Source: an uncultured Pelagibacteraceae bacterium
GTDB taxonomy: Bacteria > Pseudomonadota > Alphaproteobacteria > Pelagibacterales > Pelagibacteraceae
Reading direction: 5' to 3'
Assembly (NCBI GenBank): GCA_902634695.1
Contig: CACPLE010000006.1
Coordinates: forward strand, 1 to 44,847
DNA: 44,847 bases
The position numbers and the translations under genes are program-made. Under the pieces are notes generated by a model. It saw only the letters and a program-made list of their open reading frames with translations. It made no database searches and was not told the DNA's origin. Numbering within the stretch: position 1 is the first letter of the stretch; the number at the start of each line of letters is the position of its first letter. Shown one piece after another: positions 1,570-42,376 of this stretch.

Positions 1570-3110
1570 TGAACAAAAAATTTTTTAATATAATTACTTT
1601 ATTTTCTGTTTTTATTTTAGTTTTAACAGGGTGTTCTCAGCAAGGTAAATTTGGAAAACCTTTTAAACATAATACACCTTTAATAAAAGAAGACATAAAA
1701 AACTCAGGAAAAAAAGAAATTCAAAAAACTGTAGATATGGGGCCTAGCCCAGTTGAAGGAGATGTTGAAAAATTACAGAAAAGAAAACAATTGTCATCTG
1801 TAAAATCAAAAAATTATCTTCTTATTCCCGAAGAATACACATCTTTAAAACAAAACCTGTCATTTAAATTTCAAAATCTTGATTATAAAGAAGCTATGAC
1901 CCTAATGGCTAAAATGGGAAACATTAATATTTTAGTAGGAGAAGAAGTTGCAGGTTCTATCTCAGCTGAACTTGATAATGTTCCATGGGATAAAGCATTT
2001 AATGCATTATTAGACATGAAAAATTTTGCAGCAGATATTGATGTTTCAAACAATATTATAAGAGTTCATTCACCAGCAGTATTGACTTCTCAAGAAAGTT
2101 ATAAGTCTGCAAGAGCGTCAGCAGTTAAAAAGAAAGTTGAACTTGAGGACTCGGTTGAACCAATTATTTCTGAGATATTTAGACTCTACTATATTTCTCC
2201 AGCTGAAGCAAAAGCGACAATAACTGAACTATTTACTGACACAACAGGAGGATCGAGTTTCATACCAATACAGGTAACTGAAGAAAAAACAACGCGATCA
2301 ATAATAGTCAGAGGTAAAGCAAAAGATTTAGATGTAGTTGATAAAGTAATTCGAGAAATAGATGTAAGAACTAAACAAGTTTTAATAGAAGCTTTCATAG
2401 TAGAAGCATCTTCGACATTTGAAAAAGCACTTGGAAGTAAATTGGGGGGAGTATACACAAGACAGCAAGAACAAATAGGTGGTACTGTTGGTGGAAGCTC
2501 AGCTAGTAGTGGAATTACCGATACGACAGCTGCAATTGGAGGTACACAAGATCTATTAACAAGCTTTGGAGCAGCAGGAGCAACAAGCGGTATTGGAATT
2601 TTGAAGAGAACCGGTTCTGGAGTTTTAAAAGTTCAATTAGATGCATTAGAAAAAGAAGGTCTTGGAAAAACAATTTCAAATCCAAAAGTTTTTACAATTG
2701 ATAATCAACTTGCAACAATTACACAGGGTGAACAAATTGCGGTTACTACGAACACAGGCTCAGGAACATCAAGCACAGAATTTAAGGATGCAGCCCTGAA
2801 ATTAAATGTTACTCCTAGTATTATAGGTGATGGAAATGTACTTTTAGATATTACGGTTAATAATGACACTCCAAATAGATCATCAGGAGCCGATGTAGGA
2901 ATAAACAAAATGGAGATAAAAACTAAGCTTTTAATAGCAGATGGGGATATTGTTGTAATTGGTGGTATAAAAAGAAATGCAGTTGCCTCTTCTTCATCAG
3001 CAACACCAGGAGTTGGCAAACTTCCTGTTGTAGGAAATCTATTTAAAGGAAAATCGAACAGTGATACGCTTAGTGAGTTATTAATATTTATAGCGCCAAG
3101 GATTTTATAA
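1569..3110 (+). CDS. Secretin (PilQ/MshL/GspD family), lipoprotein signal
   Basis: Lipobox LTGC; STN-like domain (FKFQNLDYKEAMTLMAKMGNINILV); secretin core VLIEAFIVEAS...LGKTISNPKVFTIDNQLATITQGEQI; terminal ELLIFIAPRIL. Confidence 0.93.
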   Translation: MNKKFFNIITLFSVFILVLTGCSQQGKFGKPFKHNTPLIKEDIKNSGKKEIQKTVDMGPSPVEGDVEKLQKRKQLSSVKSKNYLLIPEEYTSLKQNLSFKFQNLDYKEAMTLMAKMGNINILVGEEVAGSISAELDNVPWDKAFNALLDMKNFAADIDVSNNIIRVHSPAVLTSQESYKSARASAVKKKVELEDSVEPIISEIFRLYYISPAEAKATITELFTDTTGGSSFIPIQVTEEKTTRSIIVRGKAKDLDVVDKVIREIDVRTKQVLIEAFIVEASSTFEKALGSKLGGVYTRQQEQIGGTVGGSSASSGITDTTAAIGGTQDLLTSFGAAGATSGIGILKRTGSGVLKVQLDALEKEGLGKTISNPKVFTIDNQLATITQGEQIAVTTNTGSGTSSTEFKDAALKLNVTPSIIGDGNVLLDITVNNDTPNRSSGADVGINKMEIKTKLLIADGDIVVIGGIKRNAVASSSSATPGVGKLPVVGNLFKGKSNSDTLSELLIFIAPRIL

Positions 3111-4861
3111 TGCTTAAAATAAGTAGAGAAAGTGAAATTAACCTAATCAACGTCTTGATCGATCACGACATTATTTCAGGTAAAGATTTAATTAATATTA
3201 AGAAAGTTAGCACTGAAAAAAATAAATCTCAAATTGATGCAGTATTTGAACTTAAACTTACTGATGAAGAAAAAATTTTAAATGTACTTGTTAAAGAACA
3301 AAATTTAGAAACTGTAGATTTATCAAAAATTGAATTATCAGATGAAATTAAAAGCGTTCTTCCATCTAACTATATAAATACAAATTTTGTTGCTCCATTT
3401 AAAGTTGAAGGAAATACACTTCACATTGCAATTCCAGATAGTTCAAAATTAGGCTTAATGAGAAATTTAAAAGCTATCACAAAAAAAAATATTGAACTTC
3501 ATGCTGCAAAAATTACTCACATTTCAGAGTTTATAGAAAAATTATTAAGTGAAAGTGGCGATGTAACAGCTGCTACAATTAGAAAAGAAAACAGAGAAAA
3601 AACAAAAACTTTTGACAGTGATTTAGGAGAGGCAGGAGAAGTTCTTGAAAAACCACCTGAAGAAGATATTGAAGCAATAGAAAACGAGTCAGAGGTAATT
3701 AAATTTAGTACAGCAGTAGTGGCCGAAGCAATTAAATCTGGTGTTAGTGATATTCACATTGAACCATATAGATTTACTTCAAGAGTTCGTTATCGTCAGG
3801 ATGGTATGCTGCAAGAACAAGAGCAGTATAAAAAATTTCTTCACGATAACTACGGTGCTGTAGTAACTCGTTTTAAGATAATGGGTAAACTTGATATTGC
3901 AGAAAGAAGATTGCCACAAGATGGTGCAATCAATTTTAAAATTGATGGAAAGGTAGTTGACCTTCGACTATCTATTTTACCTACAGCTAGCAATGAAAGA
4001 ATTGTAATGCGGGTTTTAAATAAAGATGCGGGAGATATAACTCTCGAGCAATTAAATTTTGAAGATGCTGATTTAAAAAACTTAAGAAAAGCGATTCATG
4101 GTACTCAAGGTTTAATTCTTGTAACAGGCCCAACCGGTTCTGGAAAATCAACAACATTGTACAGTATTCTTAAAGAAGTAAGTAAACCACATTTAAATAT
4201 TTTGACCGCAGAAGATCCAGTTGAATATGAACTAGATGGAGTTGGGCAAGTTCAAATTAAAGATGATATTGGACTAAGTTTTTCAGCCGCATTAAGATCT
4301 TTTCTTCGTCAAGATCCAGAAATAATTCTAGTTGGAGAGATGAGAGATAAAGAGACAGTTGATATTGGATTAAAAGCTGCACTTACTGGGCACTTAGTTT
4401 TTAGTACACTTCACACTAATGATGCTCCAAGTACAATTACTAGATTGCAAAATATGGGAACACCCGATTATTTAATTAGTGCTGCAACTCAGATGGTGCT
4501 TGCGCAAAGACTTGCAAGAAAAAACTGTAAAGATTGTAGAGTTCCAGATGAAGATGTAAATCCCAAAGTTTTAACTGATTTAGGTTTTTCTCCCGAACAA
4601 GCATCAAGAGTGAAAGCTACAAAAGGAAAAGGTTGTTCAAAATGTAAAAACACAGGTTACAAAGGTAGACAAGGTATATATGAAATTTTGGTGGTTACTA
4701 AACCAATTAAAGAAGCCATACTTAAACAAGCTACCACTCCAGAATTAAAGGCAATTGCAATAAAAGAAGGCTTTCAAACTATGCAAGATATGGGAAGAAG
4801 AATGATTGCAAATGGCTCCCTTAGTTTTAGGGAGTATGAGAGAGTTTTATCCTCTTCATAA
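3110..4861 (+). CDS. Type IV pilus/type II secretion assembly ATPase (PilB/GspE/MshE family)
   Basis: Walker A GPTGSGKSTT, Asp box/Walker B, tetra-Cys CKDC...CSKC, MshE-type N-terminal domain. Confidence 0.96.
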   Translation: MLKISRESEINLINVLIDHDIISGKDLINIKKVSTEKNKSQIDAVFELKLTDEEKILNVLVKEQNLETVDLSKIELSDEIKSVLPSNYINTNFVAPFKVEGNTLHIAIPDSSKLGLMRNLKAITKKNIELHAAKITHISEFIEKLLSESGDVTAATIRKENREKTKTFDSDLGEAGEVLEKPPEEDIEAIENESEVIKFSTAVVAEAIKSGVSDIHIEPYRFTSRVRYRQDGMLQEQEQYKKFLHDNYGAVVTRFKIMGKLDIAERRLPQDGAINFKIDGKVVDLRLSILPTASNERIVMRVLNKDAGDITLEQLNFEDADLKNLRKAIHGTQGLILVTGPTGSGKSTTLYSILKEVSKPHLNILTAEDPVEYELDGVGQVQIKDDIGLSFSAALRSFLRQDPEIILVGEMRDKETVDIGLKAALTGHLVFSTLHTNDAPSTITRLQNMGTPDYLISAATQMVLAQRLARKNCKDCRVPDEDVNPKVLTDLGFSPEQASRVKATKGKGCSKCKNTGYKGRQGIYEILVVTKPIKEAILKQATTPELKAIAIKEGFQTMQDMGRRMIANGSLSFREYERVLSSS

Positions 4862-4868
4862 TTAATAA

Positions 4869-6107
4869 ATGGAAACATTTACATATAAAGGTATTTCAGC
4901 AGGCAAATATGTGGAAGGTGAAGTTGAAGCGTTAAATCAAGAAGAAGCTTCTCATAAGCTTAAAGAAGATAAAATCATAATTACCAATATAACTAGAACA
5001 AAGAAAAAAAAAGGTGAAGCAAAAGCCAAAGGTAAAGGCAAGGGACTTTCATTATTTGGCAAAAAGAAAGTAAAAGTAGAAGACATTTTAATATTTTCAA
5101 AGCAATTTGCAACCATGGTTAAAGCAGGCTTGCCAATACTAGAAGTTCTTGCAATGTTAAGAGATCAACTTGAAAACCCATCAATTAAAGAAATAATTGA
5201 AGATATAAGAAAAAGTCTTGAAGGTGGTGTAACACTTTCAAAGTGTTTTGAAAAATACCCGCAGTATTTTGATAACGTGTATGTAAACTTAATAAAGGCT
5301 GGTGAGGCCAGTGGTAAACTAGATCTCTTTCTTTTAAAAATTGTAGATTCTTTAGAAAAGAAAGAAAAAATTAAAAAGAAAATTAAAGGTGCTTTAATGT
5401 ACCCAGCTATAATGTTCACTGTTGCAATTACAGTAAGTGCCTTCATGTTAGTAAAAGTTGTGCCAGTATTTGCTAAAATGTATGAAGGTATGGGAATTGC
5501 ACTTCCAAAACCAACAGCAATTATATTAGGAATGAGCGATTTTTTAAGAGGTACTGGTGGACTGATGTTGTTATTAGGATCTATTAGTGGTTATTTCATT
5601 TTTAAATATTTAACAACAAAGAACGAAAAAATTAAATACAAATGGCACAAACAAGTTTTAAAGTTGCCTGTGTTTGGAGAGATGATTTTAAAATCTTTAC
5701 TTGCAAGAATTTCATTAATTATGGGAAACCTTAGTGCTGCTGGAGTTAATTTATTAGAGAGTATAGAAATTGCAAAATCAGTTAGCAATAATGTAGTCGT
5801 AACTGAAGCTTTAGAAAATGTAAAAAAAGGAGTTTTTTCAGGAGATACTTTAACAAAACTTTTTTTAAAGGAACCTTTGTTTCCACCCACATTCAGCCAA
5901 CTAATTTCAGTTGGGGAACAAACTGGGCAATTAGATGAAATGTTTGGATCTGTTGCAAGTTACTATGAAGAAGAATTTGATACTTCTGTAGATAATATGT
6001 CTGCTTTAATTGAACCAATCATGATTGTTTTTATGGGCCTTATGATTGGTGGACTAATGATAGCGATGTATTCTCCAATATTTAATGTTGGAGCATTAAT
6101 AGGTTAA
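4869..6107 (+). CDS. Type IV pilus inner-membrane platform protein (PilC/GspF/MshG family)
   Basis: Two GspF domains (FSKQFATMVKAGLPILEVL...; LISVGEQTGQLDEMFGSVASYYEEEFD), C-terminal TM. Confidence 0.95.
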   Translation: METFTYKGISAGKYVEGEVEALNQEEASHKLKEDKIIITNITRTKKKKGEAKAKGKGKGLSLFGKKKVKVEDILIFSKQFATMVKAGLPILEVLAMLRDQLENPSIKEIIEDIRKSLEGGVTLSKCFEKYPQYFDNVYVNLIKAGEASGKLDLFLLKIVDSLEKKEKIKKKIKGALMYPAIMFTVAITVSAFMLVKVVPVFAKMYEGMGIALPKPTAIILGMSDFLRGTGGLMLLLGSISGYFIFKYLTTKNEKIKYKWHKQVLKLPVFGEMILKSLLARISLIMGNLSAAGVNLLESIEIAKSVSNNVVVTEALENVKKGVFSGDTLTKLFLKEPLFPPTFSQLISVGEQTGQLDEMFGSVASYYEEEFDTSVDNMSALIEPIMIVFMGLMIGGLMIAMYSPIFNVGALIG

Positions 6108-21707: not shown

Positions 21708-21906
21708 AATTTATATATAGTGATTTTTTTTTAAATTTCTTCCTTTTAATTTATTATTTTAAATTCATTAAAAATCACTTTTTAAAAATACCCAATTTGG
21801 ACTATTTTCAATTTCCTGGATTTTCAGAAATTTTATATGCCATTTTTCTCAAAAAAAAAAATAAAAGTTTAATGAAATTTTTGTTCGCTCTGATATTATG
21901 TTTATA

Positions 21907-21953
21907 GATAGTCCTATTTAGCCATTTTTAGCTCCCGGTTTTTTAGGACTATC
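21907..21953 (+). promoter_or_regulatory. 10-bp perfect inverted repeat in the 5' leader of the 21962 gene
   Basis: GATAGTCCTA (21907-21916) and TAGGACTATC (21944-21953), 27-nt loop, ending 8 nt before the ATG. Confidence 0.6.
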
Positions 21954-21961
21954 CAGTTCTC

Positions 21962-23101
21962 ATGAAAAAAATATTTTTATTTTTCATTTTTTTATTTTTT
22001 GCTTCTAATTTAGCAAACGCCCAAGAAAAAAAGAGTGGACCTCCCAAAGCTAAAGAGTGGAAAGGTAAAGGAGAAAAAATTGAATTTTCATCTTTACCTA
22101 CATTAACTATTAGAGATTTTTTATTAGGAAAAAAACCAAATAGAGAAATAACAATTTGGGGAACATTAAATTTTCCAGCTAATGCAGCAGATAAAAATGT
22201 TCCAGCAGTTGTCATATTGCATGGAATGGGTGGAGTTAATGATGCTGAAGAGCACTGGATTGAAGTTATAAACAGTATGGGAATAGCTACATTTATGGTT
22301 GATAGCAATTGGGCACGTCGTAAGTGTAAAAAAGATAATAATATAAAAAAAGAAATTCCTTGGTGTGCTGCTATGAATAGGGGAATGAATAGAATTATAG
22401 ATGCATATGGTGCATTAAAACTTTTATCAAATCACCCTCGTATTAATCCCGAACGTATTGGTTGTATTGGTATGTCACTTGGAGCTAGAGGATGTTTATA
22501 TTTAAATGTGAAAAGATTTCAAAAAATGTGGGGAACACCAGGTATGGATTTTGCAGCAAGTGTGCCAATGTATCCGCCATGCAATGCTACTTTTAAAGAT
22601 GATGACGATATAACAGATACTCCCATTCGCATTCATGTTGGAGAATTAGATACATATTTTCCAGTTGATTCATGTATAAATTATGTTGATCGTCTTAAAG
22701 CAAAAGGAAAAGATGTTGATATAAAAGTTTATTCCGATGCACATCATAGTTTTGAAGCAACAATTTCTGGAAAAAAATCAATGAAAGTTAAAGGTCAAAA
22801 TGATGGAAGATGTTACTATGAAGAAAATCATTCACTACCAGTTGCAGACATGGATCTTGATGATGTAGCAATACTATCTCAAGTTGGATTTGATGATTGG
22901 TATGCAAGTGCTTCAGATAAAGATAAGAAAAAAATTTTTAAAAGAGTCAAAATGAGACACAAAATGGGTTGGAGGATTCCACAGTTTCAGTATGATAGAA
23001 GTTGTGTAAGTAAATCAAACACTATAGCTTATAATAAAGCAGCATCAGAAGAGAATGAAAAACTAGTAAGGGAATTTTTCACATCAACTTTATTGAACTA
23101 A
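21962..23101 (+). CDS. Secreted dienelactone hydrolase-family alpha/beta hydrolase
   Basis: Signal peptide; VVILHGMGGVNDAEEHW; nucleophile elbow GMSLGARG; HVGELDTYFP; DAHHSFE. Confidence 0.8.
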   Translation: MKKIFLFFIFLFFASNLANAQEKKSGPPKAKEWKGKGEKIEFSSLPTLTIRDFLLGKKPNREITIWGTLNFPANAADKNVPAVVILHGMGGVNDAEEHWIEVINSMGIATFMVDSNWARRKCKKDNNIKKEIPWCAAMNRGMNRIIDAYGALKLLSNHPRINPERIGCIGMSLGARGCLYLNVKRFQKMWGTPGMDFAASVPMYPPCNATFKDDDDITDTPIRIHVGELDTYFPVDSCINYVDRLKAKGKDVDIKVYSDAHHSFEATISGKKSMKVKGQNDGRCYYEENHSLPVADMDLDDVAILSQVGFDDWYASASDKDKKKIFKRVKMRHKMGWRIPQFQYDRSCVSKSNTIAYNKAASEENEKLVREFFTSTLLN

Positions 23102-32197: not shown

Positions 32198-33676
32198 TTA
32201 TCTCATTGAAAAAGGATCAAGAGTTGGTTCATCAGAAGTATAAAACCATGTTGTTTTAACTCTTGTGTAGTCTTTAATTGAATCTATTCCAGCTTCTTTA
32301 CCATATCCACTGTCTTTTATTCCACCAAATGGAGCAGAAGGAGAAATTAATCTGTATGTGTTTACAAAAGTAATACCTGCTCGAATTGCTTTTGAAACCC
32401 TCAATCCTCTAGCTAGGTCTTTTGTGTATACTCCTGATGATAATCCATATTTATTGTCATTCATTTTTTTTATTACTTCTTCTTCAGAATCAAACTTCAT
32501 TACTGATAAAACTGGTCCAAATAATTCATTTTCTGCAGAAGGCAAATTGTGATTGTCACATTCAATAATTGTTGGAGGAAAGTAATAACCTTTATTTGAA
32601 AAAGAATGTCTTTTTCCTCCACATTTTATTTTGCCTCCTTGTTCCACTGTAAGTTTAATATTTTTTTCAATATTTTCTAACTGTTTGTAATTGCTTAAGG
32701 GACCCATTTCTGTTTCAGCATCCATGGGTGCACCAATTTTAATTTTGTTGGCTCTTGTCGTTAATTTTTCTAGAAATTCATTGTAGATTCCTTTTTGAAT
32801 ATAAAGTCTAGAACCAGCAATACAGCTTTGTCCTGTTGCGCCGAAAATTCCTGCCGTAATACCATTAATAGCATTTTCTTGGTTTGCATCTTCAAAAACA
32901 GCAACTGGACTTTTGCCACCAAGTTCTAAACTTACTTCTGATAAGTTTTCTGCTGAATTTCTAATAATATGTCTTGCAGTTTCAGGACCTCCAGTAAAAG
33001 CAACTTTTTCAACAAGATCATGCGAGGTTAAAGCTTTGCCACAAGGTTCTCCAAAGCCACTAATTACATTTACAACGCCTTTTGGTATTCCAGCTTTTTC
33101 AATTAATTTTGCAAACTCAAACATAGTAGCAGGTGCTAATTCTGAACATTTAATCACAACTGTATTTCCCATTGCAAGTGCCGGAGCTAATTTTGTTGCG
33201 GTTAAAAACATTTGTGAATTCCAGGGTACAATTGCTGCAATAACTCCTATAGGTATCCTTGTTGTTATGGCTTGGATGTTTGGTTTATCAATTGGCAAAA
33301 CTGTTCCTTCAACTTTGTCAGCAAGACCAGCATAATAGTCATAATATTCTGCAATATAGTTTGCTTGTTTATTTGTTTCTCTAAATAGTTTGCCCGTATC
33401 AATTGTCTCTACTTTTCCAAGCAATTCAGCATTTTCTCTTAATTGGTTTCCAATTGCCCTTAAAAATTTTCCTCTTTCTCTTGGTAGAATTTTAGGCCAA
33501 TCTCCTTCGAAAGCTTTTTGTGCTGCTTTTACAGCAAGGTCAACATCTTTTGTACTAGCTTCAGGAACTTTTGCCCAAGGTTCGTTATTTTCAGGATTTA
33601 AAGTTTCAAAAGTTTTTTTACTTTCTGATTCTACCCAAGAACCATCAATAAACATTTTATATTCTTTAAGCTTCGT
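32198..33676 (-). CDS. Aldehyde dehydrogenase family protein (start may be 33676 or 33694)
   Basis: VSLELGGKSPVAVFEDA; GATGQSCIAGSRLYIQ; PFGGIKDSGYGKEAG. Confidence 0.92.
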   Translation of the reverse strand, partial: TKLKEYKMFIDGSWVESESKKTFETLNPENNEPWAKVPEASTKDVDLAVKAAQKAFEGDWPKILPRERGKFLRAIGNQLRENAELLGKVETIDTGKLFRETNKQANYIAEYYDYYAGLADKVEGTVLPIDKPNIQAITTRIPIGVIAAIVPWNSQMFLTATKLAPALAMGNTVVIKCSELAPATMFEFAKLIEKAGIPKGVVNVISGFGEPCGKALTSHDLVEKVAFTGGPETARHIIRNSAENLSEVSLELGGKSPVAVFEDANQENAINGITAGIFGATGQSCIAGSRLYIQKGIYNEFLEKLTTRANKIKIGAPMDAETEMGPLSNYKQLENIEKNIKLTVEQGGKIKCGGKRHSFSNKGYYFPPTIIECDNHNLPSAENELFGPVLSVMKFDSEEEVIKKMNDNKYGLSSGVYTKDLARGLRVSKAIRAGITFVNTYRLISPSAPFGGIKDSGYGKEAGIDSIKDYTRVKTTWFYTSDEPTLDPFSMR

Positions 33677-34463
33677 CATAATTTTGATCAACAAATAATT
33701 CTATAACTTTATTAAATTCTTCTGCGCATTCTATATTACATAGATGCTTACCATTTTTTATTTCTATAAACTTTGCTGCTTTGATTTTTTCACTTAAATT
33801 TTTTGCCATATCTGTTGTTGATCCTAAGTCATGTTGTCCAGTAGTTACAAGTGTATTTACGTTAATATTATTAAGGATTTTGTCATCATCATCATAATTT
33901 ACAAAAAGTTTGTAAGCTTTTAGTATATTATTGAGGTCATTTTCTTTAAGCATTGAATATATTTTTTCATATGTTTCCTTGTTTTTCTTAATGAAATCAT
34001 CTGAAAACCATCTTCTCAAGGCTCTGTCCTGCGAAGTTGGTCTACTTGTTTTAATTAATTCAAACCTATTTTGAACCACTCTTTTTTGTTCTTCTGATCT
34101 TTTATAAATAGATCCATGAAGAACTAACGAGCTTAGCTTGTCTCCATGTGTGGCTGCAAAATGCCTAGCAATAAGTGAGCCCAAAGAAAAGCCAACTAGA
34201 TGGATTTTATTGATTTCTAGTTCTTTAATCAGGTTAAGCAATTGTTTAGTAAAATCTTCAAAATTTAATTGAGTTTTTTGCAATGGAGTCTTTCCATGAC
34301 CAATTAAATCATATGTAATAATATTATGATCTTTAAAAAATTTTATTTGATCACTCCAAATTTCTTTGGTTAAACCAACTCCATGTATGAAAACAATGGG
34401 ATTTGATTCATTTTCTTTTTTAAACTCATAGTTGGTTTTGTATTTTTCTGAAGTAGTAGGCAT
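33666..34463 (-). CDS. Alpha/beta hydrolase
   Basis: IVFIHGVGLTKEIW; nucleophile elbow VGFSLGSLIA; KNGKHLCNIE. Confidence 0.88.
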   Translation of the reverse strand: MPTTSEKYKTNYEFKKENESNPIVFIHGVGLTKEIWSDQIKFFKDHNIITYDLIGHGKTPLQKTQLNFEDFTKQLLNLIKELEINKIHLVGFSLGSLIARHFAATHGDKLSSLVLHGSIYKRSEEQKRVVQNRFELIKTSRPTSQDRALRRWFSDDFIKKNKETYEKIYSMLKENDLNNILKAYKLFVNYDDDDKILNNINVNTLVTTGQHDLGSTTDMAKNLSEKIKAAKFIEIKNGKHLCNIECAEEFNKVIELFVDQNYDEA

Positions 34464-34471
34464 AGATTTTT

Positions 34472-35059
34472 CTAGGATTTTAATCCCATTTCTTTCATAT
34501 CTTGGTATCTATCACCCGTCCTTGCATGGGCTCGACCACTAGAAGCGCCACCAATTGCTATAACAATTTCATCATCAAATGGTGCATCATGAATTGTAAA
34601 TTCATGAGTTAAATAATAAGGCCTTAAACCGGAATCTTTTTTATGCATCATAGGGATAGATATTTTAGACCCAGCTGGACCTCTTGTATTTGTAAAACTT
34701 AAATAAGAAGTTCCACCAACCGCTTCTCTAAATTTGTTTCCAAATCTCAATGTGTGTATAAAAGCAGAAGCATGTTCGATTTCTCCTGAAAGACCCACGA
34801 TACCTGCTTTTCCATAAGCCAAAATCTTATCTGGCGAACCTATTTCTTTAATTAATTCTGGAACTAAAATGTCACCTAGTTTTGGTGCAAGGTCTAAAAT
34901 TACTGGTTTTAAATCTTCAACAAAACTTTTTCCAGCCCAAGGATTTTGTATTACTGCAGCAACAGAAACTAACAAAACAGGTTCTTTTGCTTTTTTTCCA
35001 CCTTCAATAAATGTTTTATCTACAAATTTAACAAATTTTCTTAGTTTTAATTCCATCAA
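34472..35059 (-). CDS. Amino acid synthesis family protein (AA_synth/DUF1185-like)
   Basis: VSVAAVIQNPWAGKSF; IVGLSGEIEHASAFIHTLRFGNKFREAVGGTSYLSFTNTRGPAGSKISIPMMHK; IAIGGASSGRAHARTGDRY. Confidence 0.8.
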   Translation of the reverse strand: MMELKLRKFVKFVDKTFIEGGKKAKEPVLLVSVAAVIQNPWAGKSFVEDLKPVILDLAPKLGDILVPELIKEIGSPDKILAYGKAGIVGLSGEIEHASAFIHTLRFGNKFREAVGGTSYLSFTNTRGPAGSKISIPMMHKKDSGLRPYYLTHEFTIHDAPFDDEIVIAIGGASSGRAHARTGDRYQDMKEMGLKS

Positions 35060-36222
35060 CTTGCTCTTTGAATATTTGATTTATCATTATTAATTCTTGG
35101 AATAACTTCATCATTAAATAATTTAATACTTCTCATACAATCTTCATGCTTAACTCCAGGAAAATTTGACCAAACTTGTAAATTTTGAAGATTTAATTCT
35201 GATTGAAGCTCTTTTATTTTGCTTACTACATAATCAGGGGTTCCAAACAATAAATTTCTTTTATGTAAAAAATCATAGTTTAGAAGATCTAATTTATTTT
35301 TTGTTTCAGGTAATTTTTCATCTGGATCCATGTGATTTCCTAATCCCCTCCAGTGACACACCCATCTCATGTAATTAATAATATGTTCTCCTGCAAGTTT
35401 TTCAGCTTCTTCCATTGTTTCAGCTACAAACATATCTCTAACTAAACAAATTCCTTCTCCTAATGGTACGTCTCTATTTTCAGCTTTTGATTTTGCTTCT
35501 TTGTAAATTTCAAAACGTTTTTTTAAAGCTTTAACCGTAGGGATCCACATAATTGTATTCAAACCATTTAAACCAGCCCACTGTATAGATCTTTCACCAT
35601 CTACTACTTGCCAGATAGGTGGATATGGTTTTTGTAATGGTTTAGGCACAATGCTGATTTTTTTTATTTCATTTGTATTAGTATCTAAAAATTCTTCACT
35701 AGGTGGACTCATATCATGTTGCCAAATAAAATTTGGAGCTGGATAAGTATAAAATTCACCTTTATGGCTAAAGAACTTTTCAGTCCATGCTTTTTTTATA
35801 ATTTTTAAGGTTTCTTCAAATAATCTAAAATTTTTTGCCTGGTCTTTAAGGTCTGATTCAACGTTCATATTTATAGCTTCTCTACCATACACACCTCTTC
35901 CAATTCCAAAATCAACACGTCCTTTAGACATGTGATCTAACATTGCGACATCTTCAGCTAATCTTATAGGATTATGAAAAGTTATAACACTACAAGCTTG
36001 ACCAATCCTAATTTGATTTGTTCTTGCGGCAGCATCAGAACACATTAATAATGGATTAGGACAAGACTCCATTCCTTCATGGTTAAAGTGGTGTTCAGTG
36101 AACCAAATTGAATTCCATTTATTTTGGTCGCAATATCTTGTTATTTCTCTAGCCTCTTCTAGGATTTGAGTATAAGATTTTTTATTCCAGTTTGTGGTAT
36201 TACAAAAGTATCCAAACTTCAT
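35056..36222 (-). CDS. LLM-class flavin-dependent monooxygenase
   Basis: WFTEHHFNHEGMESCPNPLLMCSDAAARTNQIRIGQACSVITFHNPIRLAEDVAMLDHMSKGRVDFGIGRG. Confidence 0.92.
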   Translation of the reverse strand: MKFGYFCNTTNWNKKSYTQILEEAREITRYCDQNKWNSIWFTEHHFNHEGMESCPNPLLMCSDAAARTNQIRIGQACSVITFHNPIRLAEDVAMLDHMSKGRVDFGIGRGVYGREAINMNVESDLKDQAKNFRLFEETLKIIKKAWTEKFFSHKGEFYTYPAPNFIWQHDMSPPSEEFLDTNTNEIKKISIVPKPLQKPYPPIWQVVDGERSIQWAGLNGLNTIMWIPTVKALKKRFEIYKEAKSKAENRDVPLGEGICLVRDMFVAETMEEAEKLAGEHIINYMRWVCHWRGLGNHMDPDEKLPETKNKLDLLNYDFLHKRNLLFGTPDYVVSKIKELQSELNLQNLQVWSNFPGVKHEDCMRSIKLFNDEVIPRINNDKSNIQRAS

Positions 36223-36239
36223 ATATGCTCCTTAATAAA

Positions 36240-36290
36240 ATAACTTAAAGGACCTATCCCACTTTCGCATCGGAAATAACGACGAGTTAT
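36240..36290 (-). promoter_or_regulatory. Candidate structured RNA leader (possible riboswitch) upstream of the LLM monooxygenase gene
   Basis: Minus-strand P1 AUAACU/AGUUAU (36290-36285/36245-36240) encloses CGUCG/CGAUG (36284-36280/36272-36268) and GGA/UCC (36259-36257/36252-36250); followed by AAGGAG RBS. Confidence 0.5.
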
Positions 36291-36314
36291 GTATCTCTTT
36301 ATTTTTAGATATTA

Positions 36315-37289
36315 TTATTCTTGCCTTTGATATTCAATGAATTTTTTTAAAGATTGATTAAGGAATTTTTCATAAATTAGTCCACTATTATTTGTCTTAG
36401 AGTTATTTAAAAAAGATTCATTCATTTTAAAATCATATGAAGGTTCAAAAAAGAAAGGTATAGACATTCTTTTTGTTTTATTCCAAAGCACTCTATGGTT
36501 TGTAGCTTTAAATTTACCTTTACTTAAAAACTCAAGAGCTCTTCCAGTGTTTACTACTAAAGCTTTTTTATCAAATGGCACATTATACCATTTTTTGTTT
36601 TTTCTATTTTGAACTTGCAAACCTCCCTTTTTATCTTGATAAAGTATTGTAAATATTCCACTATCAACATGAGTTTCGCATCCTAAAGCAACCCCATCTT
36701 GTTTAGAAACTTCTACAGGACTAGTTTGATTTGGATAATAGTTAAACCTTAGAGTGCTTAAAGTTTTAAGCCTTGAAAAAACTTTTTTAGAACCATTGAT
36801 GTCTTTGTTATAGAGTTTTATGATACTTTTAAATAATATTTCACCCAAATTAAATATTTCATCAAAATAATTTGATAATATTTTAATTGATTTTTTATTT
36901 ATAGATTTATTTAAATTTAAATATTCAACATATTGGTTTTTGATAGATTTTGCATATTTTTTTGTAACTTTTAAATCCCCAATATCTAAACCTTCTTTTC
37001 CGTTTACATCATTAGGAAAATAACCTCTATAAATATTTTTATTTTTAGAATTCCATTTATTTGGCGCAAGTTTTCTTTTGTTTTTTTCAGATGAACTAAA
37101 GAATTTGCTACCTACATTGCAAATATTTTTAATATTTTTTTGACTAATGCCATGTCCTGTGATTTGAAAAAAACCAATATTAATACAGGCTTTTTTAATT
37201 TTATTTATCGTATTAATAGATTTTGAAGACTCAAAACCATTTTTTATTATTGAGGAGATATTAATTGTAGGAATTATATTTTTAGACAT
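36315..37289 (-). CDS. 2-oxoglutarate/Fe(II)-dependent oxygenase, isopenicillin N synthase-like family
   Basis: ACINIGFFQITGHGI; ETHVDSGIFTILYQDKKGGLQV; KATNHRVLWNKTKRMSIPFFFEP. Confidence 0.88.
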   Translation of the reverse strand: MSKNIIPTINISSIIKNGFESSKSINTINKIKKACINIGFFQITGHGISQKNIKNICNVGSKFFSSSEKNKRKLAPNKWNSKNKNIYRGYFPNDVNGKEGLDIGDLKVTKKYAKSIKNQYVEYLNLNKSINKKSIKILSNYFDEIFNLGEILFKSIIKLYNKDINGSKKVFSRLKTLSTLRFNYYPNQTSPVEVSKQDGVALGCETHVDSGIFTILYQDKKGGLQVQNRKNKKWYNVPFDKKALVVNTGRALEFLSKGKFKATNHRVLWNKTKRMSIPFFFEPSYDFKMNESFLNNSKTNNSGLIYEKFLNQSLKKFIEYQRQE

Positions 37290-39423: not shown

Positions 39424-41006
39424 TTAATTTAAAATAAGATCAGAGGCTTTTTCAGCAATCATAAGGGTAGGGGCATTTAAATTCGCACTTGGAATTTCTG
39501 GCATCACAGAAGCATCTACTACTCTTAAATTTTGTATTCCTTTAACTTTTAAACTCTCATCAACCACAGCCATTTCATCTACACCCATTTTACAAGTTCC
39601 ACATGGGTGATAAGCTGTTTCCGCCTTAGATCTTATATATTCGTTTAATTCTTCATCAGTTCGTTTGTCAGAACCTGGTCCAACCTCATTACCAGAATGT
39701 TTTTCTAAAGAAGGTTGTGCTAAAATTTTTCTCGCAACATGAATGCATTCTCGTGTTTGTCTTAGATCGTCTTCGTGTTCTAAATAATTAAATAATATTT
39801 TTGGATAATCGTAAGGATCAGAAGAATTAAGTCTAATAGATCCTCTGCTTTTAGGATGATTAGGACTTGCGTGTAATTGATAACCATGAGAACTAGGATT
39901 AACCAAACCATGATCAATAACAAATGATGGAAAAAAATGAAATTGAATGTTTGCTATTTCACGTTCCGGAGAAGATTTAGCAAATCCTCCAGCTTCCAAA
40001 TATGACTGTGAGCAAGGACCAGACTTAGATAAAAAACCACTGAATTCCAGCTAAAACTTTTGGAATTAACTTTGTATATGTGTAAAGAGTATCTGGAGTT
40101 TTGCATTCTTGCATAATGTATGTTTCCAAATGATCTTGAAGATTTTTTCCAACTCCTTTTACATCGTTTACAACTGTAATTCCTTTTTCTTTTAAATGAT
40201 TTGCATCACCAATTCCTGAAAGCATTAACAATTGTGGTGAATTAATTGAACCTCCACTTAATATTATTTCTTTTTCTGCATAAACTTTTTCAAGTTTATT
40301 TTTAATTTTTACTTCAATACCAATGGCTTTTTTCCCATCAAAAATAATTCTTTCAACAAATGAATTAGAAAAAATATTTAAATTTTTTCTTTTTTTTGCA
40401 GGATTCAAATAGTATTTTGTTGCACTTGCTCTTTGACCTTTATGAATTGTTGTATCAAACATACCAAATCCTTCTTGCTCTTCCCCATTCATATCGGGAT
40501 TAATAGCATGTCCTGCTTCAGAAGCTGAATTTATAAAAGCTTTAAATAGAGGATTGTCATTTTTTGATTGATTAACTGGAAGCGGACCCAGCGAACCTCT
40601 ATATTGGTTTTCTCCTCCTGACCATGTTTCAATTTTTTTTAAAATAAGGTAGAACTTTTTCGTAAGACCAAGATTTTAATCCAAAGTTTTCCCATCTTTC
40701 ATAATCATTTCTATTACCTCTTACAAAAACCATTCCGTTATGAGCAGAGCAACCTCCAATCATTTTACCTCTTGGACAAAATAATCTTCTATTGTTTAAA
40801 TATGGCTCAGGTTCAGAATAATATTTCCAATTATATTTTGGATCATGCATCGTATAAAGTAAAGCAAGTGGCATTTTAACTTTCCAAATATCACTTGAAC
40901 CACCAGCTTCAAAGACAGCAACTTTATTTTTTTGATCTTCAGACAGTCTATTTGAAAGGACACATCCAGCTGAACCTGCTCCAATTATTATATAATCAAA
41001 TTTCAT
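39424..41006 (-). pseudogene. GMC-family (choline/alcohol dehydrogenase-like) oxidoreductase split into three ORFs by two single-nt homopolymer frameshifts
   Basis: FAD motif YIIIGAGSAGCVLSNRLSED; removing one A from A8 (~40633-40640) and one T from T6 (~40032-40037) joins all three ORFs into a continuous GMC protein. Confidence 0.85.
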
Positions 41007-41542
41007 AATAGATTTGAATTTAGTAAATTTTTGTAATCATTAATATCTTTCATTTTGATACCTGTTTTTTTTGCTGCTTCATCAAATTTTCTAAGTTTAA
41101 TAGCATCATCAAAATATTTTTCATGTTCAAATTTTTCTGCTTCTTCTTCGCTCATTACACCACCTTGTAAATGTAAACTGACTTTAGAAGCTTGAGAGAG
41201 TATATTGAAATATTTTTTATTTCTTGCCAAATATCTTTTTGCCTTAACGTGAATTTTTATTGGTTCAACAACACTTTTTTTAAAATACTTTTTAAGATAT
41301 AGATAAGCAACATCTTCGTGTTTTCCATCTTCTTTTTTGTTTACCAGTTGATCAGGGTCATCTAAAATAAAATGACCATAATCATGAAGCAAAGAAGCAC
41401 ATACCAAACCTGAGGAACATTTATTTTTTTCAGCAAGCATTGCAGACTGGATCATGTGTTCGGTCATTGTTACTTTCTCCCCAATATAAAGAGACTTATT
41501 GGTTTTATAGTTTTTAATTATTTTTTCTATTATTGAGCTCAA
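41003..41542 (-). CDS. HD-domain protein of the PhnZ/TmpB-like phosphonate oxygenase family
   Basis: YIGEKVTMTEHMIQSA; ASLLHDYGHFI; IHVKAKRYL; LSQASKVSLHLQGGVMSEEEAEKFE; spacing Y-x2-E-x6-H. Confidence 0.8.
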   Translation of the reverse strand: MSSIIEKIIKNYKTNKSLYIGEKVTMTEHMIQSAMLAEKNKCSSGLVCASLLHDYGHFILDDPDQLVNKKEDGKHEDVAYLYLKKYFKKSVVEPIKIHVKAKRYLARNKKYFNILSQASKVSLHLQGGVMSEEEAEKFEHEKYFDDAIKLRKFDEAAKKTGIKMKDINDYKNLLNSNLL

Positions 41543-42376
41543 TTAAATTGGAATATCTCCTTCTATAGCTATTCTATCCATAATTCTTTTATATCCAAGA
41601 CCTCTTCCAGGATAAAAATCTGCAATTGCAAAATGAATAACACTTCTATTGTCCCAAATGCATACAGTATTTTCAGTCCAGGTAAATCTGCAAGTTAATT
41701 CAAGTCTTGCCTGATGTTCAAAAATTTTATTTAAAATTTCATCACTTTCTTCTTTATCTAAACCGATAATTTTTTTTGTATAAGTCCAATTAACAAACAA
41801 TATCTTTTTTCCAGTTTCGGGATGTGTTCTAACTATTGGATGTTCATTTGAATATGCATCGTAATTTCTTTTTTTATTTACTTCCATATGTTTGTAGTCG
41901 TCTACGAAAAACTCAGCACCTAGAGAGCTATGTACAGCTTTTTTATCTTTTATTTTTTCTTTAATTTTCTCATCTAAGGTGTCCCAAGCTAGCTCCATGT
42001 TGGAAAAACATGTGTCGCCACCAACAGGAGGTATTTTTAATGATTTTAATATTACTGCCTTAGTTGGTTTTTCATTATAACTGACATCACTGTGCCAGTT
42101 TTCTCCCCATTGGTTTTTTTCTTCTTCACCTTTAATTATTCTAACTATTTCTGGATGCTTATCTAGACCTTTAACATAAGCATGAGTTTCTATCGGTCCA
42201 AATTTTTCACCTAAAGCAATTTGTTCTTCATTCGTGATCGGCTGGTTTCTGAAAAAAATAACTTTATGTTCTAGTAGTAAATCATTAATTTTTTTAAAAT
42301 TTTCATCTGAAGTATCTTTAAGGTCAATACCAGTAACTTCAGCACCTAAGGCCCCTGATAGTAATTTTATTTCCAT
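41543..42376 (-). CDS. TauD/TfdA-family Fe(II)/2-oxoglutarate dioxygenase
   Basis: GALGAEVTGIDL; WHSDVSYNEKPTKAVIL; TWTENTVCIWDNRSVIHFAIADF. Confidence 0.9.
   Translation of the reverse strand: MEIKLLSGALGAEVTGIDLKDTSDENFKKINDLLLEHKVIFFRNQPITNEEQIALGEKFGPIETHAYVKGLDKHPEIVRIIKGEEEKNQWGENWHSDVSYNEKPTKAVILKSLKIPPVGGDTCFSNMELAWDTLDEKIKEKIKDKKAVHSSLGAEFFVDDYKHMEVNKKRNYDAYSNEHPIVRTHPETGKKILFVNWTYTKKIIGLDKEESDEILNKIFEHQARLELTCRFTWTENTVCIWDNRSVIHFAIADFYPGRGLGYKRIMDRIAIEGDIPI

Follow-up and report, generated by a model that had tools for sequence, protein, structure and literature searches.

The window analyzed here is a 44,847-nucleotide stretch of DNA from an uncultured Pelagibacteraceae bacterium, whose genome (701 kb) is 59% complete. 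Its minus strand carries an operon headed by a gene for an LLM (bacterial-luciferase-like) monooxygenase (35056–36222; Pfam PF00296, E 4.7e-49), and the closest relatives of this protein by sequence come from uncultured Pelagibacteraceae (SAR11). Genes for an AA_synth family protein (34472–35059; PF06684), an alpha/beta hydrolase (33666–34463) and an aldehyde dehydrogenase (32198–33694) follow on the same strand, and then an EamA transporter and a periplasmic binding protein. Among the window ORFs listed, no regulator gene adjoins the operon. The leader studied here lies on the minus strand between the LLM gene and a 2-oxoglutarate-dependent oxygenase gene (36315–37289).

Between LLM and AA_synth, three relatives carry an additional gene that encodes about 565 aa (L149, 7930–9627; L171, 1800–3497; L169, 3020–4708); its product in L149 and L171 is ThDP-dependent and Xsc/acetolactate-synthase-like, and the window's operon does not contain it. 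Elsewhere in the window, a GMC-type oxidoreductase gene (39424–41006, minus strand) is seemingly split into three ORFs, while L149 has one 527-aa frame (1610–3193); the split could be a pseudogene or a sequencing error. Next to each other at 41003–42376 (minus strand) are a TauD-family dioxygenase and an HD-domain protein, a pair that we take to resemble the phosphonate oxidation pairs of the PhnY*/PhnZ or TmpA/TmpB type.

The RNA quoted in the initial annotation was found on the minus strand as described; AAGGAG and the start codon of the LLM gene (ATG, 36222) come shortly after it. We compared the leaders of LLM orthologs taken from 80 genome loci and 298 order-level genomes. Essentially all ATG or GTG starts examined are preceded by the consensus ...AAAGCGAUACAUAACUCGUCGU-(variable)-ACGAAAGUGGGAUCGGUCGUCUUU... 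(L068 has no upstream sequence). The near-invariant core of the element, which spans about 54 nt (36247–36300), reads ACAUAACUC...GAAAGYGGGAU. This core is kept in the leaders of 110 compared loci, while the sequence further upstream is unrelated in many of them and differs between clades. Essentially every LLM ortholog examined whose 5′ end is intact has the element in front of it, and these orthologs come from two families of Pelagibacterales; in the second family, whose LLM proteins are 55–60% identical, the leader persists with a shortened third helix (ACAUAACUCACC-AUUAAA-GGAAGCGGGAUCGG). Conservation sets in abruptly where the fold begins, with the opening base pairs of helix P1; there, the information content per position rises from about 0.05–1.2 bits upstream to 1.3–2.0 bits. 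In the second-family locus L170, the motif TTGAAA-17-TACAAT is likely a promoter, judging from its sequence, with transcription starting just before P1. A promoter scan of the window returned no minus-strand promoter.

Comparison of 103 leaders yielded the fold, a hairpin of three helices (P1-P2-P3) that is interrupted by two conserved internal loops. In the window, the aptamer-like domain (AAAGAGAUACAUAACUCGUCGUUAUUUCCGAUGCGAAAGUGGGAUAGGUCCUUU, 36247–36300) was delimited by the match to covariance model R1, alignment A1 and pair counts. The 5′ arm of P1 is AAAG-A-GAU (36293–36300), with A36296 bulged in the window copy, and is placed by covariation and by the sharp onset of conservation. The 5′ side of loop J1/2, ACAUAA (36287–36292), is essentially invariant in A1, where only C11 varies, in one sequence. 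CUC (36284–36286) forms the 5′ arm of P2 and pairs with GGG at 36258–36260. The P3 hairpin, UCG...CGA (36265–36282), has a tip that varies in length and sequence, and it is defined by the second-family variants and pair counts. The conserved 3′ segment AAGU-GGG-AUAG (36254–36264) supplies loop J3/2, the 3′ arm of P2 and loop J2/1 (alignment A1). The domain ends with the 3′ arm of P1, GUC-CUUU (36247–36253), which doubles as the 5′ arm of a fourth helix, P4; pair counts, tail folds and an arm-swap test support the two uses, which are mutually exclusive. P4 (36229–36253), identified from local folds and the arm-swap test, pairs UCCUUUAA (36245–36252) with UUAAGGA (36229–36235) and thereby involves the Shine-Dalgarno sequence AAGGAG (36228–36233), recognized by its sequence. 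The consensus helices are AAAGCGAU/RUCG(U)CUUU with a one-base bulge for P1, CUC/GRG for P2, and UCG.../...CGA with a variable tip for P3. The interval originally assigned to the element, 36235–36295, thus covers most of it, and its true extent is 36247–36300 for the aptamer-like part plus 36229–36253 for the Shine-Dalgarno hairpin.

The support for this fold comes from base-pair changes among relatives. In alignment A1, which holds 44 diverse leaders and is nearly gap-free outside the P3 tip, 91.2% of cells are paired, and 8 of the 14 pairs are changed on both sides (13 cells). None of 500 shuffles reached any observed pairing or covariation value, in a test that ignores shared ancestry, and sliding the register lowered the paired cells to 35–56%. 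Compensatory changes support P1 and P3. P1 appears as GAAGAC/GUUUUC in L114, as AAGAC(A)GAU/AUCGUCUU in L154 and, with the bulge absent, as AGCGAU/GUCGCU in L172. A balanced base-pair deletion is present in L173, where an A is lost from GCGAU and a U from GUCG (GCGU/GCGC). In P3, pair 20–58 of A1 is UA in 40 leaders and CG in 4, and the second family replaces UCG/CGA with CC/GG or CUG/CGG. P2 is supported by fit rather than covariation because it is nearly invariant: all of its cells are paired, with one one-sided change, from U-G to U-A where GGG is GAG. Swapping P1 arms between leaders weakened the pairing (own −4.33 versus swapped −3.99 kcal/mol; 4 of 5000 permutations, or 2 of 5000 with one pair per class; relatedness was not removed).

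These changes bear on whether the conserved sequence could act as DNA. An operator or promoter would be consistent with its position near a putative transcription start and with its very high conservation. However, the tip between the two conserved blocks ranges from about 2 to 35 nt and nonetheless folds as a hairpin, pairing is preserved by compensatory changes and by a balanced deletion of a base pair, and the P4 arms and the Shine-Dalgarno region have changed together, so that a DNA-level element is very improbable. The leader is almost certainly a structured cis-element.

Individual sequences fold less clearly. Single-sequence folding of the window leader gave z values of 0.10, 0.68 and 0.65 in three windows, no better than shuffled sequence, which on its own would fit a chance fold in AT-rich intergenic noise. 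Conservation across two families with covariation refutes such an explanation already and leaves it practically no chance. When folded without constraints, L018 and the divergent L172 adopt P1-P2-P3; for L114 and the window copy, energy alone does not suffice. The window copy folds weakly (z 1.22) and has lost a base pair in P1. RNAalifold on A1 recovered part of the fold, with weak energy. Since single-sequence folding is unremarkable and Rfam offers no credible match, the evidence must come from relatives.

The relatives also decide against other structures. The initial annotation had drawn a three-way junction, but its 6-bp P1 (AUAACU/AGUUAU) can form in only 1 of 83 unique leaders, the window copy itself, and its CGUCG/CGAUG hairpin in 2 of 83, whereas the first two P3 pairs of the corrected fold can form in all 83. 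The junction is therefore replaced by a single interrupted hairpin that competes with the Shine-Dalgarno hairpin. The initial annotation had named a lack of conservation or of covariation as its refutation; this holds for the helices it drew and does not hold for the corrected fold. An alternative pairing, CGAU/AUCG at GGGAUCG, was rejected as well: it is broken in L114, in the GCGU variants and in the window copy itself. Leader-peptide attenuation was also considered and rejected: there is no conserved reading frame, and in the window copy a stop codon ends the GUG-GGA frame (GUG GGA UAG).

A pattern search found the element in 123 of 398 Pelagibacterales genomes. Covariance model R1 (61 positions) matches the window at 36243–36301 (61.3 bits, E 9.1e-11), which it does by construction, as this copy (L089) was among the model seeds. 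Of 218 Pelagibacterales genomes, 73 contain a match to R1, and each of these has an LLM ortholog, as determined by reading the two lists against each other. In 386 class-level and 299 phylum-level genomes, searched up to E 0.001, only the window matches; these large searches use stricter Infernal filters, so weak homologs may be missed. The viral contigs searched contained no match. The element is absent from LLM relatives outside the Pelagibacterales (34–56% identical). The closest of these (G606, 56% identical) has the same order, LLM-AA_synth-hydrolase-aldehyde dehydrogenase. Genes for a flavin reductase and a Rieske oxygenase and a LysR-type gene lie close to it, and the leader is missing. 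Additional copies of the leader core without a downstream LLM gene occur in L149 (about 5165–5225) and L162 (about 1800–1870, minus strand). The former follows the 2-oxoglutarate-dependent oxygenase gene and is separated by an inserted gene from a second, intact leader; the latter has an altered P1 3′ arm and an unrelated gene beyond it. Both look like remnants.

The leader has no credible family match in Rfam, in line with the initial annotation, which could not assign it to a known class. Rfam 15 (4227 models), run on the whole window at the gathering threshold, returned only rhtB, elsewhere in the window, and a search up to E 10 with this leader, six further loci and a short relative gave nothing credible. 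The SAM-V and SAM-II covariance models do not match the leader. The rhtB RNA (RF01814), a SAR11 RNA of Meyer et al. (2009), is located at 21889–21971 on the plus strand (79.4 bits).

A short AU-rich spacer separates P1 from the Shine-Dalgarno sequence. When 60 distinct tails were folded locally to minimum energy, every one of them paired the Shine-Dalgarno sequence through the P1 3′ arm (mean z −2.4 versus mononucleotide shuffles). Exchange of P4 arms between leaders changed the mean energy from −6.84 (own) to −5.91 kcal/mol (swapped), a difference reached in 0 of 5000 permutations, or in 52 of 5000 with one pair per 5′-arm sequence; relatedness was not removed here either. In L051 and L120 the spacer is short, and P4 forms poorly or not at all. 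By sequence overlap, P1 and P4 exclude each other, and it is likely that they compete. We modeled the consequence by forcing the inner three pairs of P1 together with P2. In the 71 leaders processed (32 others were missed by the start-codon pattern and dropped), the mean unpaired probability of the Shine-Dalgarno sequence rose from 0.23 to 0.51, with openness up by more than 0.1 in 59 leaders and down by that much in none. This predicted gain counts as supporting evidence only for the P1/P4 model.

That P1 and P4 overlap points to control at the level of translation, and the catabolic nature of the operon argues for induction. Mutual exclusion of the two helices is most simply read as a translational switch of the ON type, and the geometry makes us lean toward this polarity. 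The opposite, a ligand-bound form that hides the Shine-Dalgarno sequence, for example through an aptamer core compatible with part of P4, appears improbable. It draws on the limited overlap of P4, which involves lower P1 (CUUU) and RUC, and on leaders such as L048 that keep the Shine-Dalgarno sequence paired under the forced pairs (0.16 to 0.19); against it, the forced pairs reduced accessibility by more than 0.1 in 0 of 71 leaders and raised it in 59, and induction would be expected for a catabolic operon. In the ON model, P4 would form without ligand and the operon would be silent. A ligand settling in the two conserved internal loops, which are the likely binding pocket, would hold P1 and pull the CUUU arm from P4. 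Withdrawal of this arm would free the ribosome-binding site and allow the catabolic operon, beginning with the LLM gene, to be translated.

The leader is conserved and structured, lies in cis to a metabolic gene, shows covariation, and has an expression platform that excludes the aptamer. The suggestion of a riboswitch-like leader of no known class is thus well supported by conservation, covariation, position and the built-in structure covering the Shine-Dalgarno sequence. We propose that it is probably a new class of cis-regulatory RNA, a candidate small-molecule riboswitch controlling translation, and small-molecule sensing is probable. The main rival is a site for an RNA-binding protein, such as an enzyme of the operon itself or a regulator of general function; the protein would set translation by stabilizing P1 or P4. 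We consider this rather unlikely. A pocket of internal loops that directly overlaps a Shine-Dalgarno hairpin is typical of riboswitches, the controlled gene encodes a catabolic enzyme rather than a ribosomal or RNA-binding protein, and no regulator adjoins the operon. On the other side, protein-binding leaders likewise have invariant nucleotides in their loops and occur in a single gene context, and the SAR11 leader motifs rpsB, rpsL and ffh have been proposed to bind proteins (PMC2704228).

Compared with known systems, the candidate riboswitch resembles SAM-V (described in PMC2704228) and SAM-II of Pelagibacter in being a compact SAR11 leader before a start codon that would control access to the ribosome-binding site. 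However, those are H-type pseudoknots before methionine genes, whereas the present element precedes a catabolic LLM operon and consists of a hairpin interrupted by two internal loops. It shares with the candidate RNAs that Meyer et al. (2009) described from the genome of HTCC1062 (rhtB, pntA, bablM, SAR11_0636, rpsB, rpsL and ffh; PMC2704228) the character of a lineage-restricted, conserved intergenic RNA, but none of these is described as preceding an LLM gene. Monooxygenase or luciferase genes are not mentioned in the text of that study, nor, in the open-licence literature, in later surveys of bacterial noncoding RNAs; a search of the same literature for riboswitches with luciferase-like monooxygenases found nothing relevant. 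Within this literature, we found no earlier report of the class.

The element is known from one gene context, the LLM operon, which does not allow metabolic triangulation of the ligand. The ligand may be a substrate or early intermediate of the pathway formed by the LLM, AA_synth, hydrolase and aldehyde dehydrogenase proteins. The combination of LLM, hydrolase and aldehyde dehydrogenase, with a ThDP enzyme in several relatives and Rieske proteins (a GbcA-like one beside the G606 operon and another near L169), suggests as a lead rather than a result that the operon opens a nitrogen-containing compound oxidatively. Ring-cleavage operons based on LLM monooxygenases, such as tgn for trigonelline and rut for pyrimidines, combine this enzyme with an alpha/beta hydrolase and, in tgn, an aldehyde dehydrogenase. 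The SAR11 operon is alike in gene content, and it differs in adding AA_synth and, in several relatives, the ThDP enzyme. TgnA and TgnB open the trigonelline ring, and the opening enzyme has been argued to be unlikely to act on homarine (PMC8269262). The papers examined on homarine or trigonelline supplied background and no SAR11 LLM operon. We regard a broader proposal as evenly balanced. In it, the new riboswitch class is confined to Pelagibacterales and senses either the compound that the LLM operon degrades or the first intermediate of that pathway; the ligand might be an N-heterocycle made by phytoplankton and similar to trigonelline or homarine, and the RNA would replace a transcription factor in these streamlined genomes.

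With a length of about 54 nt in the window copy, the element would represent a compact class of aptamer with a built-in Shine-Dalgarno switch. It would place RNA control in the Pelagibacterales lineage, in contrast to the LysR-type gene near the orthologous operon elsewhere. SAR11 bacteria rank with the most abundant cells of the ocean, and it has long been asked which dissolved compounds they consume. A candidate orphan riboswitch on one catabolic operon provides a handle on this diet, as its ligand would name the substrate.
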